This document shows positions 2,450-17,738 of a stretch of 20,423 nt of DNA, piece by piece; position 1 is the stretch's first letter, and each line of letters begins with the position of its first letter. The notes below the pieces were generated by a model, which had not been told where the DNA came from, made no database searches, and was given only the letters and a program-made list of their open reading frames with translations. The translations under genes and the position numbers were made by a program. Source of the stretch: a virus; the IMG/VR virus record IMGVR_UViG_3300007734_000437, positions 1-20,423 of that record. One strand, written 5' to 3'.

Positions 2450-4981
2450 TCAATAACTCCAAGTCTTGTCCTGTACCTGTTCGGCGGCGTGCGGGTCCAC
2501 AAACTCGCAGTTTGATACGCAAAGGTAACGCAGACAGTCGATTGGGTCTTTGGTGGCCTCGTCCTTGCCGCCTTTGGCCGTGTACTCCTGCATGGAGTAA
2601 ATCAGGTTCTGGCAGCGGTCGCTGATGTACAGCTTCGGGGCGTTTAACGCCGACAGGGGCCGCTTTTCGTCATAGGACAGCAGCCCGTTGATGAGTTGGA
2701 TGCCGTTTTCAATCTCCACGCCAGGTGCGGGGTGGAAGATCATGCCGGCCTCATCCAACTCGCTTATGATGGTGGTGGCGCCTTCTTGGGACTGCTTTTC
2801 CGCCGCACCGAGACGCGGGTCGATGAACCGCTCGAAGATCGCTTCCCCTTCTTCGCAGTGCTTGATGAGTTCGACGTAATCGACGATGCCTTTCTTGCTG
2901 CCTTTTTGGGCGGGACCGGGCTTTCCTTCGGGTCCGGCTCCGGGCAAGGCCCAATCGTCGTAGTCGGGCCACTCTCGGTAGACCCACCATGTACCGGCGG
3001 CGTCGATGGCGACCCAGAGCATGAACCAGTTTTTTGATCCTGCCGGGTCCAGTGCCATGTAACGTGTGACGTTGTAGTCCACGTTGTTTGTCCACGGCAT
3101 CTTTTCGTGAGGTATGACATTAACGTCCTTATTAAAGCCAGGAAAGACGCTAGTGATGCTTTTGGTGGGTACGCCATATGCACGGGCCAACACTTCGTCC
3201 TTTGGACGCCCTAGCAACTTGTTTCGGAAGTCGGAGGTGTCGATGAAAGCGTTATCCTCGGTCCAGAAATAGTAGATAACAGTGCCCGGTCGGGAAAGGG
3301 ACTCTTGGACGACTGGTAGCTCTCGACCCACCAGCGGGGCAAATCGCTTTTCAATAATACGAGTCTTCCCGAGGATGTCCTGAACCAGAGGTGTCCAGCC
3401 TGTGAGAGTAGTAAACGTGAGGATGATGCGTCCATGGTAGTCGGTCGTGCGGTATTGGAGCGTCTCAAACATCTTCTGCGGACACTCTTCGTCGCACCAG
3501 ATCAAGTGAGCGCGGTAACCTTCGGCTACCTGTGCGTCAGCTTGGTAACTGCGGTAGTTACTAAACTTAATACTGCCACCACGACGGAAACCATTAACAG
3601 GAGGCAGGATACAGATGTTATCAGTAAAACCATTCTTCTGGGAGTACTGGACACTGTGGTTTAAGCCCTTCTTGGTCGGTAGATTGCGGATGCCCTGCGG
3701 GAGAGCATCCCAGACCATGCGCTGCTGGTCTTCGATGCTCCGGTCCTCATTGACGTGGTAGGCACGGACCTCTGCGCCTGGGATCGTACCCGCCGCCCAC
3801 ACGCAAAGACGGCTGGCGATCATGGATTTCGAGGAGTTGTGGTGAATTACCCCTGCTACCTCGTAGTTACCATAGGAGGGAACAGTTATATCCCACTTGA
3901 CTTCTATTCCCGCTGACCTAATACCAGTGACATATGCCACGCCATAATGCGATTGAGTATCCTGTTCAGAAGATTCGCGATTGGATTGCTGAAGGCCAGA
4001 CACAGCAACAGATCGCTTCACACCTTCAGCAAACGCTGGATGGTCGCATAACGCCAAAATTGGTTTACAAGGTTTGCAAGAAGCATGGCATTCAATGCCA
4101 GCGAACAGGTCCACGTGCCGGCGAAGGTCATCCAGAGTGGCAAGGCGGTAGAATCTTTTCCAGACTGGGATACGTGAAAGTATTCTGCCCAGAACACCCA
4201 ACTTGCGTTGCTGTAAATCAAAAGCGAGCTGCGCGAGCCAACGGCGGGTATTTTCGGAAGCAGAAGTACGTATGGGAACACCGCCTCGTAATGGAGAAGC
4301 ATCTAGGCAGATTCCTTCAGCCTCGTGAAGTAGTTCATCACATAAATGGCAATCGCAGCGACAATCGGCTGGAGAACCTGATCGTGTTTGGCTCAAACGC
4401 AGAGCATCTCCGAGTCGATCTTGCTGGCCGTTGTCCAAAATGGAGCGAGGATGGAAGAGCGCGGACCCTAGCCGCAGTTCTTCAACGGAGCGCCAAGTAC
4501 CGTCTGCCAAAAGCACGCGATGCTCAAGAGAAGCGACAAATCGTTGACCGGTTGAAAGCCAAACTTCCCGCATCGCACCAGGAGGCTTTTGAAACGGCTC
4601 TTCAGCCTCTGCTATGATGCGAGTGCCGCCATCCCACGCATAAACGTGGTGCTTGCCTTTGATGCTGTCGATTCGGCGACTGACGTTAAGCACCGGATCG
4701 TACACCAACGTATCGCCACGCAAGCAGCGGTTGCCTCCGAGGATGACGTGGTTGGTGTACTTGCCCCAGTTGCCCATCACCGTCTGCCACGAAGGCAGAA
4801 TCCAACCGGCACCAACGGGATTTTGCAGCGCCTCTTGATTCCGCTGCTCCCGAAACGCGAGGTAGTTCGCCAGCTTGTCGTGCGGCCAGCTCAACAGCTC
4901 ACCATCCGGCGGGTTCTCCACCCACGGGATGCCAAAATCGGGCTTAAAGTCATCGGCAAAGTAAACGTCACCGAGCGGCAT
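2450..4981 (-). CDS. terL: Terminase large subunit interrupted by an intein
   Basis: This is the ATPase-nuclease that drives DNA into the prohead. The precursor is 843 residues; removing the predicted intein (residues 86-382) leaves 546, a normal TerL size. The intein falls inside the Walker A loop, which reads GGNR, then the intein, then SSKS. That rejoins to GGNRSSKS, a deviant P-loop familiar in phage terminases. Further along are a Walker B-like LIWCDEE (493-499), a coupling segment LTFTTLTG (521-528) and nuclease acidic residues at D645 (ALDPAG), D721 (FIDPR) and D812/D815 (KDPIDCLRY). The ATP site is split, so enzyme activity should depend on splicing. The start overlaps the upstream small gene by 14 bp. 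The central intein segment is also the antisense of an HNH gene. Confidence 0.9.
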   Translation of the reverse strand: MPLGDVYFADDFKPDFGIPWVENPPDGELLSWPHDKLANYLAFREQRNQEALQNPVGAGWILPSWQTVMGNWGKYTNHVILGGNRCLRGDTLVYDPVLNVSRRIDSIKGKHHVYAWDGGTRIIAEAEEPFQKPPGAMREVWLSTGQRFVASLEHRVLLADGTWRSVEELRLGSALFHPRSILDNGQQDRLGDALRLSQTRSGSPADCRCDCHLCDELLHEAEGICLDASPLRGGVPIRTSASENTRRWLAQLAFDLQQRKLGVLGRILSRIPVWKRFYRLATLDDLRRHVDLFAGIECHASCKPCKPILALCDHPAFAEGVKRSVAVSGLQQSNRESSEQDTQSHYGVAYVTGIRSAGIEVKWDITVPSYGNYEVAGVIHHNSSKSMIASRLCVWAAGTIPGAEVRAYHVNEDRSIEDQQRMVWDALPQGIRNLPTKKGLNHSVQYSQKNGFTDNICILPPVNGFRRGGSIKFSNYRSYQADAQVAEGYRAHLIWCDEECPQKMFETLQYRTTDYHGRIILTFTTLTGWTPLVQDILGKTRIIEKRFAPLVGRELPVVQESLSRPGTVIYYFWTEDNAFIDTSDFRNKLLGRPKDEVLARAYGVPTKSITSVFPGFNKDVNVIPHEKMPWTNNVDYNVTRYMALDPAGSKNWFMLWVAIDAAGTWWVYREWPDYDDWALPGAGPEGKPGPAQKGSKKGIVDYVELIKHCEEGEAIFERFIDPRLGAAEKQSQEGATTIISELDEAGMIFHPAPGVEIENGIQLINGLLSYDEKRPLSALNAPKLYISDRCQNLIYSMQEYTAKGGKDEATKDPIDCLRYLCVSNCEFVDPHAAEQVQDKTWSY
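3897..3924 (+). promoter_or_regulatory. Possible promoter for the antisense HNH gene
   Basis: TTGACT (3897-3902) is followed after 16 bp by TAATAC (3919-3924), 9 bp before the HNH start codon at 3934. The -35 matches the sigma-70 consensus at 5 of 6 positions; the -10 matches at only 3 of 6. Transcription would begin almost at the ATG, giving a leaderless or nearly leaderless mRNA, which fits the lack of a Shine-Dalgarno sequence. No plus-strand gene upstream in the window could supply read-through, so a local promoter is needed. Weakly supported. Confidence 0.3.
3934..4617 (+). CDS. HNH endonuclease encoded antisense within the terminase intein
   Basis: The 227-residue protein has an HTH-like N-terminus (KIRDWIAEGQTQQQIASHL, 13-31) and an HNH core at about 113-160. 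The key segments are VWEHRLVMEKHLGR, VVHHINGNRSDNRLENL (His135-His136, Asn138, Asn148) and a downstream H158. Phage homing endonucleases of this family cut DNA near intron, intein or intergenic insertion sites. The whole gene lies on the strand opposite the intein, 36 intein codons from its start and 32 from its end. Its C-terminal 45 or so residues are complementary to intein block B. Upstream is a TTGACT/TAATAC pair that would give an almost leaderless transcript. A clear HNH signature makes a chance antisense ORF very unlikely. The homing role is inferred from location. Confidence 0.87.
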   Translation: MPRHNAIEYPVQKIRDWIAEGQTQQQIASHLQQTLDGRITPKLVYKVCKKHGIQCQRTGPRAGEGHPEWQGGRIFSRLGYVKVFCPEHPTCVAVNQKRAARANGGYFRKQKYVWEHRLVMEKHLGRFLQPREVVHHINGNRSDNRLENLIVFGSNAEHLRVDLAGRCPKWSEDGRARTLAAVLQRSAKYRLPKARDAQEKRQIVDRLKAKLPASHQEAFETALQPLL

Positions 4982-10239: not shown

Positions 10240-10551
10240 GTTGGGGCTCGCTTGCCCTAGCTGCTGCACGCCCTTGCGCGGTCGCTTGGGGCCAGCGCGA
10301 GCCTTGCCGTAACGCTGTGCCAATTCCGAGAACCAATTTTGGTTTTCGTTTTTAGCCCGAAAATTACCGATCCCAGGACATTCAGCCTTTGGGAAAACGC
10401 CCAAGGCAATTTCGGGAAGTCAATTTACCCGAAGCATTTTGACCCGGAAACATTTTGGCTTGGGGAAAACAGGCACACCGATTTTGATTTTTGAATTTTA
10501 CCGGAAAAATAACCCACGGAAACAATTTGGCCTTGTAACCGTGGCCGCATT
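10240..10551. promoter_or_regulatory. AT-rich non-coding region before the methyltransferase
   Basis: There is no convincing gene between the terminator and the methyltransferase. From about 10330 the DNA is markedly richer in A/T than its surroundings and repeats GGAAA and ATTTTGG-like words. AACCAA-TT-TTGGTT (10331-10344) is a short hairpin followed by T-rich DNA, possibly a second weak terminator. GGCTCGC (10245-10251) and GCGAGCC (10297-10303) are complementary at long range. The region most likely holds the promoter for the methyltransferase operon. A minus-strand frame here is not persuasive. Confidence 0.45.
10445..10531 (+). repeat. Pair of 15-bp near-identical direct repeats
   Basis: CGGAAACATTTTGGC (10445-10459) and CGGAAACAATTTGGC (10517-10531) differ at one base and lie 72 bp apart. 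Related words occur between and around them: GGGGAAAACAGGC at about 10462, CCGGAAAAAT at 10501 and TTTGGGAAAAC near 10388. They could be binding sites for a regulator or replication protein. Confidence 0.5.
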
Positions 10552-11724
10552 GTGGCCCAACCAACAACGACACACATGACATGGATACTACCAAGCCAGT
10601 TACACACGTTAGCCTTTGCGCCGGGTACGGCGGCATTGATCTCGGACTCAAGCGAGCAATCCCAAATCTGCGAACAATCGCTGTTAGCGAGATCGAAGCG
10701 TTCGCCTGCGCGAACTTGGTCGCTAAAATGGAAGCGGGATGCCTGGATGCGGCACCTATCTGGACGGATGTTAAGACCTTCCCTTGGGAGGAGTTTCGCG
10801 GCAAAGTGGACATCCTCTCTGGAGGCTACCCTTGCCAGCCCTTCAGCGCCGCAGGGAAACGACTCGGCAAGGACGACCCAAGACATTTGTGGCCTTGGAT
10901 CGCAGACGGAATTCGGGTTTGCCGGCCAGCCGTGTGCTTCTTTGAGAATGTCGAGGGACACATCAGCCTTGGACTCCGAGAGGTCATCGGAGAACTGGAA
11001 GAGATCGGTTACCGAGCAACGTGGGGAGTATTCTCGGCGGCTGAAGTCGGCGCACCTCACCAACGCAAGCGGGTTTTCATCCTGGCCCACAGCAAATGCA
11101 CGGGACTGGAAAGATGGAGATGCTGGATGCAATCAACGAGCGATAGATCAAGGGCATCAGATCACTCTAGGGAGGGCTGCGACTTGTTGGAACAATGGCC
11201 CAGCCGCCCAGGCCGACCCCAGTTCCCGTGGGAGCCGCCGAGGGTGGTTGGAAATCAACCCGCAGGTTTGGGGGACACCCAGAGCGAGCGAACGGGGGGA
11301 CTGCCCATCGGAGCGGGAGAGGCACAACCCGGATTTGAGGGCGCAAGTAGTGTTGGCGCAGGCATGGGCGACACCGAAAGCCAGCGATCCCCAGCACAGC
11401 GGCCCCAATATGCGAGACTCGGCGGGGAATTATGCGCTGCCAGCGCAAGCCGTAAGAGAGTCGTGGGCGACACCGATAGTCGGGGACAGTCATCTAGCAT
11501 CGACACCCGATGTGGCGGCCAAACGATTGTCGGGGGGCAAAGTGACCTTGAGCCGTCAGAACGCTGGCAAACTGAACCCGCGCTGGGTGGAGACGCTCAT
11601 GGGTCTGCCGGTAGGATGGACTATGCCCAGTTGTGCGTCTCCGGTGACAATCGCACCGACGAATTGCGGCTCCTTGGCAACGGAGTCGTCCCAGCAACCG
11701 CAGAACGAGCTTTTCGCACTTTGA
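10552..11724 (+). CDS. Overlapping +1-frame ORF with W(A/P)TPxASD repeats
   Basis: A 390-codon open frame (GTG at 10552, or ATG at 10576) covers almost the whole methyltransferase in another frame. Its translation has features I associate with a family of phage proteins found beside C5-methyltransferases: ENWKRSVTEQRGEYSRRLKS (147-166) and repeated tryptophan units WPTANARD (178), WGTPRASE (240), WATPKASD (272) and WATPIVGD (305). Near the end is LNPRWVETLMGLPVGWT (341-357). Because the whole set occurs in order, this may be a real product made by overlapping translation. Alternatively, these proteins may be common out-of-frame annotations of the methyltransferase itself, since each WxTP unit is the same DNA as a GDTxS unit. 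I consider both possible. Confidence 0.45.
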   Translation: MAQPTTTHMTWILPSQLHTLAFAPGTAALISDSSEQSQICEQSLLARSKRSPARTWSLKWKRDAWMRHLSGRMLRPSLGRSFAAKWTSSLEATLASPSAPQGNDSARTTQDICGLGSQTEFGFAGQPCASLRMSRDTSALDSERSSENWKRSVTEQRGEYSRRLKSAHLTNASGFSSWPTANARDWKDGDAGCNQRAIDQGHQITLGRAATCWNNGPAAQADPSSRGSRRGWLEINPQVWGTPRASERGDCPSERERHNPDLRAQVVLAQAWATPKASDPQHSGPNMRDSAGNYALPAQAVRESWATPIVGDSHLASTPDVAAKRLSGGKVTLSRQNAGKLNPRWVETLMGLPVGWTMPSCASPVTIAPTNCGSLATESSQQPQNELFAL

Positions 11725-11744
11725 TCGCCCGGTTTTTCCCATGA
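10581..11744 (+). CDS. C5-cytosine DNA methyltransferase
   Basis: This 387-residue enzyme transfers a methyl group from S-adenosylmethionine to cytosine C5 in DNA, in phages often to evade host restriction. Motif I is SLCAGYGGIDLGL (11-23). Motif IV is GGYPCQPFS (81-89) with catalytic Cys85. Motif VI is ENV (122-124). Motif VIII is around QRKRVFILA (161-169). Motif X is LRLLGNGVVPATAERAF (363-379). The region between VIII and X, where target recognition sits, has three GDTxS units (231, 263, 297) and WPSRPGRPQFPWEPPRVVG. The start has no Shine-Dalgarno sequence; the leader is A/C-rich. Its stop overlaps the next start (ATGA). A second long frame runs the full length of this gene. Confidence 0.92.
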   Translation: MDTTKPVTHVSLCAGYGGIDLGLKRAIPNLRTIAVSEIEAFACANLVAKMEAGCLDAAPIWTDVKTFPWEEFRGKVDILSGGYPCQPFSAAGKRLGKDDPRHLWPWIADGIRVCRPAVCFFENVEGHISLGLREVIGELEEIGYRATWGVFSAAEVGAPHQRKRVFILAHSKCTGLERWRCWMQSTSDRSRASDHSREGCDLLEQWPSRPGRPQFPWEPPRVVGNQPAGLGDTQSERTGGLPIGAGEAQPGFEGASSVGAGMGDTESQRSPAQRPQYARLGGELCAASASRKRVVGDTDSRGQSSSIDTRCGGQTIVGGQSDLEPSERWQTEPALGGDAHGSAGRMDYAQLCVSGDNRTDELRLLGNGVVPATAERAFRTLIARFFP

Positions 11745-13993: not shown

Positions 13994-14572
13994 TCAATCT
14001 TGTGCCAGACTGCGACGAAAGCTGCGGATCGCTTGGCTGACCGCGCCTTGAGTGATGCCGTACATCTTCGCTAATTCCGTTTGAGTCATGCCAGCTTCCA
14101 GCAACTTGAAGACTTTCGGCATTTCAGAGTCCGACAACACGCAACACGGACGGCTCTGGATAACATCTCTTTTGGTCGCCCAATAGCAGTTGCTCGGCGT
14201 GTAATGCTTTTTCCAGTTTATGCGGTTGATGCAGTGCTTCGGCGTCGGACGCGGCCCCATGTCAGCCAAAAAGTTTTCAAACGAATCCTCCCAACGCTTG
14301 CAGACTTTGATGCCTTTTGCACCAACGCCACCATAACCCCTTTGCTTGGGATTTGAGCACCGCTGTTTCATCGCCCGCCAACTATGCACGGCCCCGCCAT
14401 GAAGTGCGTTGTTTTTGATTACCTCTTCGCGGTGCTCACGGTACCACTGCCTGTATGCTTCTCGCTGTTTCAACAAATCGTCGTGACTGCCCCAACATTC
14501 CTCGCCCTTCACATATTTTAGGAAAACTTGTCCGTTAGGCGCGATGTCACCCGGCTTATGTTGTTGTGTCAT
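13994..14572 (-). CDS. HNH-type homing endonuclease with C-terminal HTH
   Basis: The 192-residue protein carries the element seen in a common family of phage free-standing endonucleases: SWRAMKQRCSNPKQRGYGGV (64-83), GIKVCKRWEDSFENFLADMG (87-106), PRPTPKHCINRIN and YTPSNCYWATKRDVIQ (124-139). In typical members this reads LDRIDNxGxYxPxNCRWAT, so the catalytic Asp/His position here is altered (CINRINWKKHYTPSNCYWAT), which may affect activity. A C-terminal HTH (GMTQTELAKMYGITQGAVSQ, 161-180) probably sets target choice. The start overlaps the upstream stop (ATGA), with AAGAAAGG directly before it. It sits between virion-type genes, a usual place for free-standing homing genes. Confidence 0.78.
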   Translation of the reverse strand: MTQQHKPGDIAPNGQVFLKYVKGEECWGSHDDLLKQREAYRQWYREHREEVIKNNALHGGAVHSWRAMKQRCSNPKQRGYGGVGAKGIKVCKRWEDSFENFLADMGPRPTPKHCINRINWKKHYTPSNCYWATKRDVIQSRPCCVLSDSEMPKVFKLLEAGMTQTELAKMYGITQGAVSQAIRSFRRSLAQD

Positions 14573-16643: not shown

Positions 16644-16846
16644 GCAAGCAATGCGTCACCCATCATTTCGCCTGCGACTGCCGCGAGGCAAAGTTCAAGG
16701 AGCTAGAGCGCGAGAACGCCGCGCTGCGGGAAGCGAAGGACGCATATTTCAAGCACAATAACATCTTGGTTCAACTGATGACCGAGGATCAAAAACAGAA
16801 AGCGTTGGAGATCCTTATGTCACGACCGAAGGAGGCGCAGCCGTGA
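16640..16846 (+). CDS. Small hypothetical protein with His/Cys N-terminus and coiled coil
   Basis: ATGA-coupled. The N-terminus QCVTHHFACDCREAKFKELE combines C5, H8, H9, C12 and C14, a possible small metal site. A coiled-coil helix (RENAALREAKDAYFKHNN) follows. Short phage proteins of the form CxxHHxACxCRE...LERENAxLR are ones I recognise from many genomes, with unknown function. It ends KEAQP, the same as the next gene, because of a 20-bp repeated junction. Confidence 0.68.
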   Translation: MSKQCVTHHFACDCREAKFKELERENAALREAKDAYFKHNNILVQLMTEDQKQKALEILMSRPKEAQP

Positions 16847-17336
16847 GCGAAATCAAATCATTGCACCAAAGTGCCTTGCGCCCCGAGAACAATAAGTTCC
16901 ACAAAGGCAACGGGGACGACGGCAAACACTACTGGCTTACGCCGCCAGACCTAATGCGCAATTTGCAGCAGGAGTTTGCCTTCAATTTTGATCCGTGTCC
17001 GTTCCCAAAGCCTGCTGATTTTGACGGCCTTACTTGTGAGTGGGGTCAATCCAGTTATGTGAACCCTCCCTTTGGTTCAATTATGCACCAAGGTAAAAAG
17101 AAGGGGCCAACCGCTTGGGCGAGGAAAGCGATTACAGAGAACCGGAAAGGTAAGCGCGTAGTACTTGTGTATCCCATCGACAAGTGGATTCTTATGCTTC
17201 TCGGCGCTGGGGCAAAGGTGCGGAACCTAGGCGATGTTCGTTGGCACGCGGTTGAGGACGGATCGCAGGGCAAAGGTACAGGGAGACATATTGCCGCTTT
17301 CATTCTTGAAGCACGTAAGGAGGCGCAGCCATGAGC
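16829..17336 (+). repeat. 20-bp direct repeats flanking the adenine methyltransferase gene
   Basis: AAGGAGGCGCAGCCGTGAGC (16829-16848) and AAGGAGGCGCAGCCATGAGC (17317-17336) differ at one base, the first base of the start codon. Each copy holds the end of one gene (KEAQP), a Shine-Dalgarno sequence and the overlapping start of the next gene. The feature span covers both copies and the methyltransferase between them. Confidence 0.8.
16843..17334 (+). CDS. Phage N6-adenine DNA methyltransferase (Dam-like)
   Basis: The 163-residue protein matches the phage DNA N-6-adenine-methyltransferase family: YWLTPPDLMRNLQQEFAFNF (30-49), FDPCPFPKP (49-57), DGLTCEWG and the catalytic SYVNPPFG (71-78, NPPF as the DPPY-type motif). 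KRVVLVYPIDKW follows. It methylates adenine N6 in DNA, protecting phage DNA or marking it. The GTG start at 16843 overlaps the previous stop and has AAGGAGG upstream. Flanking 20-bp repeats suggest the gene is a recombination module. Length is normal for the family. Confidence 0.86.
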   Translation: MSEIKSLHQSALRPENNKFHKGNGDDGKHYWLTPPDLMRNLQQEFAFNFDPCPFPKPADFDGLTCEWGQSSYVNPPFGSIMHQGKKKGPTAWARKAITENRKGKRVVLVYPIDKWILMLLGAGAKVRNLGDVRWHAVEDGSQGKGTGRHIAAFILEARKEAQP

Positions 17337-17738
17337 AAGTCCCAACAGCAACTTTCGATAGTCGTTGATGCGGAAGACTCCGATCTGCTTGCAATCAAGA
17401 TTGGACCATCAAGCGGTTATGCCAGAACGACGATTCGTCCGCAAAAATACATTCATTGCATCATTGCCCAGCGAATGGGCCTATCGTGGAACAGGCGAAC
17501 TGAAGTTATTGACCACATCAACCGCGACAAACTGGACAATCGCAGGCAGAATTTGAGGGTAGCGTCCAAATCGCAGAATCTTGTGAACAGTCAAAAATGC
17601 GATCAGGCGAAAGGTTACTACAAAGCTGGAAATCTATGGATCGTTCGCGTTAAGCGAAACGGCGTAATTCATCGGAAGTCATTTAACAACGAAACCGACG
17701 CCAAGTTTTGGGCCGACGTTTTGAAGGGTATGAAATGA
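17331..17738 (+). CDS. HNH endonuclease with C-terminal AP2-like domain
   Basis: The 135-residue protein has the HNH element VIDHINRDKLDNRRQNLRVA (59-78) followed by SKSQNLVNSQK. A compact AP2-like DNA-binding domain comes next (GYYKAGNLWIVRVKRNGVIH, 95-114, then KSFNNETDAKFWADVL). This HNH-AP2 architecture is typical of free-standing phage homing endonucleases. Its start overlaps the methyltransferase stop (ATGA, with AAGGAGG) and its stop overlaps the nuclease start (ATGA), so it is perfectly fitted into the operon. The N-terminal part (SIVVDAEDSDLLAIKIGPSS) matches the usual strand set of the family. Confidence 0.87.
   Translation: MSKSQQQLSIVVDAEDSDLLAIKIGPSSGYARTTIRPQKYIHCIIAQRMGLSWNRRTEVIDHINRDKLDNRRQNLRVASKSQNLVNSQKCDQAKGYYKAGNLWIVRVKRNGVIHRKSFNNETDAKFWADVLKGMK

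Follow-up and report, generated by a model that had tools for sequence, protein, structure and literature searches.

Split C5-cytosine DNA methyltransferases have already been described. In M.EcoHK31I the small subunit is encoded in another frame inside the large gene, and the multispecific C5 methyltransferases of Bacillus phages carry tandem recognition modules, similar in size to the units described below, on a single-chain scaffold. A passage in PMC3404938 describes M.EcoHK31I (YGGCCR) as having motifs I–VIII and X, together with its predicted TRD, on the large subunit and motif IX on a second polypeptide, and M.AquI (CYCGRG) as having motifs I–VIII on one chain and motifs IX and X on the small subunit. 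A shared start, a near-complete overlap and cassettes open in two frames are not covered by the descriptions found. As judged by title or start of abstract, no description of such a co-start overlap was found in the open-licence literature; the part of PMC6070908 consulted tabulates two cytosine-methyltransferase gene products, the overlap not being discussed there.

The locus analysed here lies in a virus record of 20,423 bases, the whole of which is referred to as the window. Its frame 0 gene, alpha, encodes a C5-cytosine methyltransferase with motifs I–VIII and X and without motif IX, and a second, very probably real gene in the +1 frame, beta, codes for an N-terminal part that is helical, for four WxTP-type units and for motif IX (LNPRWVETLMGLPVGW). 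The relatives of this locus fall into four layouts, which were assigned by profile searches for the catalytic N domain and for motifs IX and X (these replaced regular expressions that missed many motifs): co-start, with the +1 frame open over the whole N domain; nested, with the +1 frame opening within the N domain; AquI-like, with a +1 ORF that extends past alpha and carries both motif IX and motif X; and single chain.

The window resembles M.EcoHK31I in this division of the motifs, with motif IX on the product of a second frame, and the nested layout, found in Paenibacillus, Lactobacillus and other phages, looks closest to that enzyme. Unlike M.EcoHK31I, the beta gene of the window starts 5 nt upstream of alpha, covers ~98% of it, and has an N-terminal extension and WxTP units; furthermore, the predicted TRD of M.EcoHK31I is placed in the large subunit (in the passage of PMC3404938 referred to above), whereas the units lie in beta here. 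Similar to M.AquI, the catalytic motifs I–VIII and motif IX are on separate chains, but motif X stays in alpha in the window, while motifs IX and X are together in the relatives L030 and L031 and in the AquI-like loci. Single-chain phage C5 methyltransferases, of which Mycobacterium phage Rita gp76 is an example (several LPTP units, LAPAFSEWMMGWPAGW, motif X and motifs I–VIII in one chain), have the same catalytic domain, LPTP units and motifs IX and X, but all in one frame. The multispecific Bacillus phage enzymes are likewise single chains, whereas the array would lie in a second frame here.

The two genes and their twin start

The features of the locus, in coordinates of the window, are the following.

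10581–11744, + strand: alpha, the frame 0 C5-cytosine methyltransferase (387 aa; PF00145, E=2.8e-33; phrog_363, E=1e-59)
10576–11724, + strand: beta, the +1 frame gene (382 aa, ATG start, stop codon at 11722–11724; phrog_1008, E=3.6e-19)
10576–10583, + strand: twin start ATGACATG, with the beta ATG at 10576 and the alpha ATG at 10581
10576–10824, + strand: N-terminal extension of beta, residues 1–83, found in the co-start class only
10605–11102, + strand: catalytic domain of alpha, motifs I–VIII, residues 9–174 (PF00145; match to the single-chain profile, E=2.8e-47)
10830–10838, + strand: PCQ of alpha, residues 84–86, which we take to belong to motif IV; invariant across 27 aligned alpha proteins
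10975–11061, + strand: predicted long helix of beta, residues 134–162, containing WKRSVTEQRGEYSRRLKS (AlphaFold2, block pLDDT up to 86, the best part of a poor model)
11083–11571, + strand: four WxTP-type units of beta, residues 170–332 (11083–11268, 11269–11364, 11365–11463 and 11464–11571), with homologous units in nested and single-chain relatives
11196–11249, + strand: WPSRPGRPQFPWEPPRVV segment of alpha under unit 1 of beta, conserved in frame 0 (alpha residues 206, 209, 210, 214 and 217–222 are invariant in 27 of 27 proteins)
11572–11634, + strand: motif IX of beta, LNPRWVETLMGLPVGWTMPSC, residues 333–353; the motif IX profile matches the +1 ORF and never alpha
11664–11723, + strand: motif X of alpha, LRLLGNGVVPATAERAFRTL, residues 362–381, a frame 0 match to the end of phrog_1008 (positions 292–321)

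PF00145 (DNA_methylase) matched alpha with 116.1 bits, the cut-off being 22, and over residues 9–174 only. In the beta frame, residues 84–357 of a 390-aa reading aligned with positions 36–279 of phrog_1008 (70.3 bits), a family labelled 'DNA methyltransferase' whose end matches the motif X of alpha in the other frame. An earlier note on this DNA had likened the +1 product to a phage family found with C5 methyltransferases, and phrog_1008 is such a family; the ordered features that it had quoted, namely WKRSVTEQRGEYSRRLKS, four WxTP-type units and LNPRWVETLMGLPVGWT, are present as well. It had missed what beta is, the carrier of the motif IX that is absent from alpha.

The +1 frame is free of stops from 10513 to 11721, and the ORF of 390 aa with a GTG start (10552–11724), open across the methyltransferase gene, is present as the earlier note had described it. 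In the 28 genes compared (see below), a +1-frame ATG adjoins the alpha start, mostly in the context ATGACATGG or ATGTGG; L023 was anchored wrongly in this comparison, owing to its alpha start. Among 83 non-redundant co-start loci, the beta ATG lies upstream of the alpha start by 2, 5, 8 or 11 nt in 82 (−2 in 45 loci, −5 in 31, −8 in 5 and −11 in 1), the exception being L040; all 45 loci of the −2 class have an alpha that begins with GTG and shares bases with the beta ATG. From this conserved twin start, the beta gene of the window would run from 10576 to 11724 (382 aa), its start being most likely ATG 10576 (MTWILP...) and not GTG 10552, which is not the conserved one and which, as the start proposed before, lies 24 nt too early.

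Elsewhere in the window, there seems to be an intein in a terminase-like ORF at 2450–4981 (− strand; PF14890, E=0.0022, and PF03237, E=0.0072, neither reaching its cut-off). An HNH endonuclease ORF (3934–4617, + strand; PF13392, E=3.4e-11; phrog_10730, E=3e-22) lies antisense within that ORF and forms a second overlap in the window. A Dam-like methyltransferase (phrog_111, E=5e-14) and two more HNH endonuclease-type ORFs are located at 16843–17334 (+ strand), 13994–14572 (− strand) and 17331–17738 (+ strand).

Selection on both reading frames

When the synonymous codons of the window gene alone were permuted, a mean of 4.1 stops was expected in the +1 frame, with P=0.025 for as few stops as observed and P=0.007 for a +1 open run as long. 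These values are suggestive and not decisive, an open +1 frame in this single gene appearing only modestly unusual, and they are what favours the explanation that the +1 ORF is spurious, a by-product of how the methyltransferase is composed or conserved, and thus an annotation error. The comparative evidence decides.

Relatives were fetched from IMG/VR with the +1 protein (9 loci) and with the frame 0 protein (27 loci). A set of 28 full-length, non-redundant genes was composed of 20 genes from the frame 0 query, seven from the +1 query and the window; the duplicates L003, L016, L018, L026, L027 and L034, the GenBank loci L040 and L041, and L010, L036 and L037, which are without the N-terminal part, stand outside it. 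The +1 frame of these 28 genes contains no stop, while ~144 were expected by synonymous shuffling, 103.4 (sd 7.6) of them upstream of codon 174 and 40.8 (sd 5.4) downstream. Stops in the +1 frame of most close relatives were thus looked for and not seen, and the proposal of the earlier note that selection keeps a second gene in this frame is borne out. The +2 frame of the same genes, used as a control, has 196 stops versus 187 expected in the N part and 276 versus 269 in the C part, and the antisense frames are not cleared of stops either (191, 450 and 200 observed versus 205, 369 and 186 expected). Outside the set, the two GenBank loci have +1 stops towards their ends, L040 at codons 0 and 461, and L041, which is of the nested type, at codons 0, 3, 50, 254, 257 and 261. 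In the reverse test, where beta-synonymous codons lying between the end of the N domain and motif IX were permuted in 81 loci, there were 0 alpha-frame stops versus 460 expected, and 711 versus 668 in the third frame.

The position of the signal follows the layout. Nested loci (46 after clustering at 85%) have +1 stops at a neutral rate before motif IV (113 versus 122 expected), none versus 145 from motif IV to the end of the N domain, and seven versus 103 from there to motif IX. In 18 single chains, +1 stops after the N domain are neutral (85 versus 84.5).

Codon positions exchange roles along the gene in an alignment of 24 genes. At alpha codons 331–360, which lie under LNPRWVETLMG, variability is 0.355 at position 1 of alpha, the third position of beta, while alpha positions 2 and 3 are quiet (0.116 and 0.122); beyond the beta stop, the variability of alpha position 3 rises to 0.623. 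Under motif IX, 5.9% of comparisons show a difference at fourfold sites of alpha, versus 61–62% just beyond beta, and the search for synonymous-site constraint in the methyltransferase frame, which had been suggested as a check, was positive. The identity of beta is 0.60–0.67 in its first three 30-codon segments, versus 0.31–0.38 in a permutation null; codons 91–120 are less conserved (0.43 versus 0.31), and the tail beyond beta is close to the null (0.315 versus 0.269). Conservation beyond what alpha imposes implies that the N-terminal sequence of beta itself matters, and not only an open frame; judged from these alignments, the extension is under selection as a protein sequence, beyond a mere absence of stops.

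Layouts were compared in pairs with catalytic domains that are 50–80% identical. Upstream of PCQ, fourfold differences amount to 0.311 in co-start loci versus 0.618 in nested, 0.599 in single-chain and 0.571 in AquI-like loci, and from PCQ on to 0.466, 0.414, 0.509 and 0.529 for co-start, nested, single-chain and AquI-like loci, respectively. The fourfold constraint on alpha tracks beta closely upstream of PCQ, with a smaller contrast downstream. These substitution patterns indicate that both frames are under selection at the protein level, and the comparative evidence leaves us nearly certain that the overlap represents real coding. The signal is confined to a single frame, to the part of the gene that beta covers and to layouts with a beta; the annotation error was rejected on these grounds, and we consider a spurious +1 ORF extremely unlikely.

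Layouts of the relatives and the probable identity of beta

No stop interrupts the +1 frame over the N domain in 25 of the 27 loci fetched with the frame 0 protein, the other two being without that domain, and in 88 of 89 loci fetched with beta, the remaining one again being without it; some contigs were fetched twice. As the co-start class is defined by openness of the N domain, its zero stops there are partly a matter of definition, from which the 28-gene test is free. The 18 GenBank phage and prophage loci comprise seven that are open across the N domain, eight nested, two single chains and one AquI-like locus. In a plasmid collection, one record was obtained with beta and five with nested beta, and a genome scan with beta yielded three loci. 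A co-start pair is located at 2836–4337 of L058, a bacterial contig of Geminisphaera colitermitum TAV2, and L059 is a Verrucomicrobia MAG; both give hints of the hosts of these phages.

The motif IX profile, which was also used to assign the layouts, matches alpha ORFs in 0 of 83 co-start, 0 of 46 nested and 0 of 20 AquI-like loci, and in all 18 single chains. Profile comparison aligned beta with nested beta (E=1.6e-29, the match covering beta residues 74 to about 200), the units and motif IX of single chains with nested beta (E=5e-16), and motif IX of beta with that of single chains (E=4.5e-9). In the direct comparison of co-start beta with single chains, motif IX alone aligned, the units being linked through nested beta as a bridge. 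The region of the single chains that precedes motif IX is thereby homologous to units that lie in beta, and a WPSRPG...WEPPRVV segment is conserved in alpha. A role of the WxTP units in recognition would follow from their position and homology.

Sequence searches of the PDB gave a best E of 0.26 for beta, to an unrelated entry, and no match for nested beta. The AlphaFold2 model of beta alone is poor (pLDDT 49, pTM 0.18), with predicted helices at residues 25–38, 44–61, 72–83 and 134–162. The model of the single-chain L144 superposes on M.HhaI (Z 21.4, 234 residues, 15–326), with a confident C-terminal part and a unit region of low confidence (pLDDT about 25–47). In the best PDB alignment, motifs IX and X of the single chains fall on M.HhaI 272–308, a very weak match (−1.7 bits) that is colinear.

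Family members outside an overlapping methyltransferase frame, whose existence the earlier note had proposed to check, were found: single-chain and tandem-split relatives have the same units and motif IX without overlap. L146 (single chain) and L157 (split, +1) have catalytic domains that are 99% identical and near-identical units, and what sets them apart is that the frame changes in the linker that joins the catalytic domain to the units. In L030 and L031, motif X is in the beta frame, together with motif IX. These natural rearrangements support the reading that the two frames encode one enzyme.

A beta with another job, for instance as a regulator or an anti-restriction factor that merely overlaps alpha, seems very unlikely to us: alpha ORFs of the co-start class have no match to motif IX, which beta carries, the same units and motif IX belong to the enzyme in single-chain relatives, and motif X switches frames between alpha and beta. 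The N-terminal extension, which is without a known relative, and an interaction with alpha that is itself deduced speak for such a role. A programmed +1 frameshift, by which ribosomes would pass from alpha into beta between motif VIII and the units to give one fused enzyme, would accord with single-chain relatives that show exactly that order in one frame, and with the linker frame change between L146 and L157. The +1 frame is, however, open and constrained as a protein upstream of any possible shift site, with its own conserved ATG, none of which the product of a shift would need, and motif X of alpha, in frame 0 and extending past the beta stop, would fall outside the fusion; we therefore judge a frameshift improbable.

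We consider it very probable that this DNA is dual-coding and specifies a C5-cytosine methyltransferase of two polypeptides, which would work like M.EcoHK31I and M.AquI, with alpha as the catalytic subunit and beta providing motif IX and target recognition. Translation would start at two codons 5 nt apart in different frames; alpha would supply the catalytic domain with motifs I–VIII as well as motif X, and beta would supply motif IX and an array of WxTP units of roughly 35 residues, which may build or arrange the side that recognises the target. Both chains would be translated and assembled into one active enzyme, methylating phage or host DNA. Residues 1 to ~73 of beta are without counterpart in the nested-beta alignment; as a guess, the extension docks on alpha. 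It may have arisen when an older nested gene was extended upstream until its start met that of alpha.

On the tree of catalytic domains, 14 layout changes are needed; with 55 rows left of 257 after clustering, it does not fix the ancestral layout or the direction of change. Between PCQ and the point where the N domain ends, single chains (for example L057, from about alpha codon 60) have few +1 stops (14 versus 40 expected), perhaps as a remnant of an earlier overlap. At 1317–2078 of L233, a prophage-like locus resembling Paenibacillus phage genes, the catalytic domain continues in frame through the last unit and into motif IX, and motif X lies outside; this is either a natural fusion or a broken copy.

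Putative recognition cassettes and the meaning of the overlap

The number of WxTP-type units per beta ranges from 0 to 7 over the 83 co-start loci, with a median length of 37 aa and four units in the window. Among 235 pairs of units that are at least 85% identical, 24 occur in loci whose catalytic domains are less than 72% identical, and 17 of these 24 pairs occupy different ordinal positions. Over all layouts, 68 pairs of units with at least 80% identity come from loci that diverge to this degree, and in 57 of the 68 the two units resemble each other more at the DNA level than the catalytic domains do; one example has 97% for unit DNA versus 75% for catalytic-domain DNA. The natural reading of these comparisons is that the units would be shuffled recognition modules, open in both frames. 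To a wider proposal for the co-start class we give somewhat less than an even chance: one initiation site would lead to two frames, a newly overprinted N-terminal domain would sit on the recognition subunit, cassettes of ~37 residues would be open in two frames, and cassette swaps would re-target methylation with alpha left intact.

Annotation usually keeps one of the two overlapping proteins. Among 15 overlapping GenBank phage and prophage loci that were opened, alpha alone is annotated in 11, beta alone in two and both in two; internal genes were marked by the GenBank annotators in Paenibacillus phages. In Synechococcus phage Ssp-JY39 (L055, 969–2084) and Komagataeibacter phage phiKX1 (L043, 1811–2419), the beta frame is the one annotated as CDS, with no annotation for alpha.

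A longer overlap is given in a passage of PMC8227390 for the tymovirus p69, with 626 aa. Same-strand dual coding over ~382 codons, with both frames open and constrained in 83 non-redundant relatives, would be a long and well-supported overlap for a phage. As one enzyme occurs naturally as a single chain and in tandem, nested and co-start form, the origin and growth of an overlap are directly testable.
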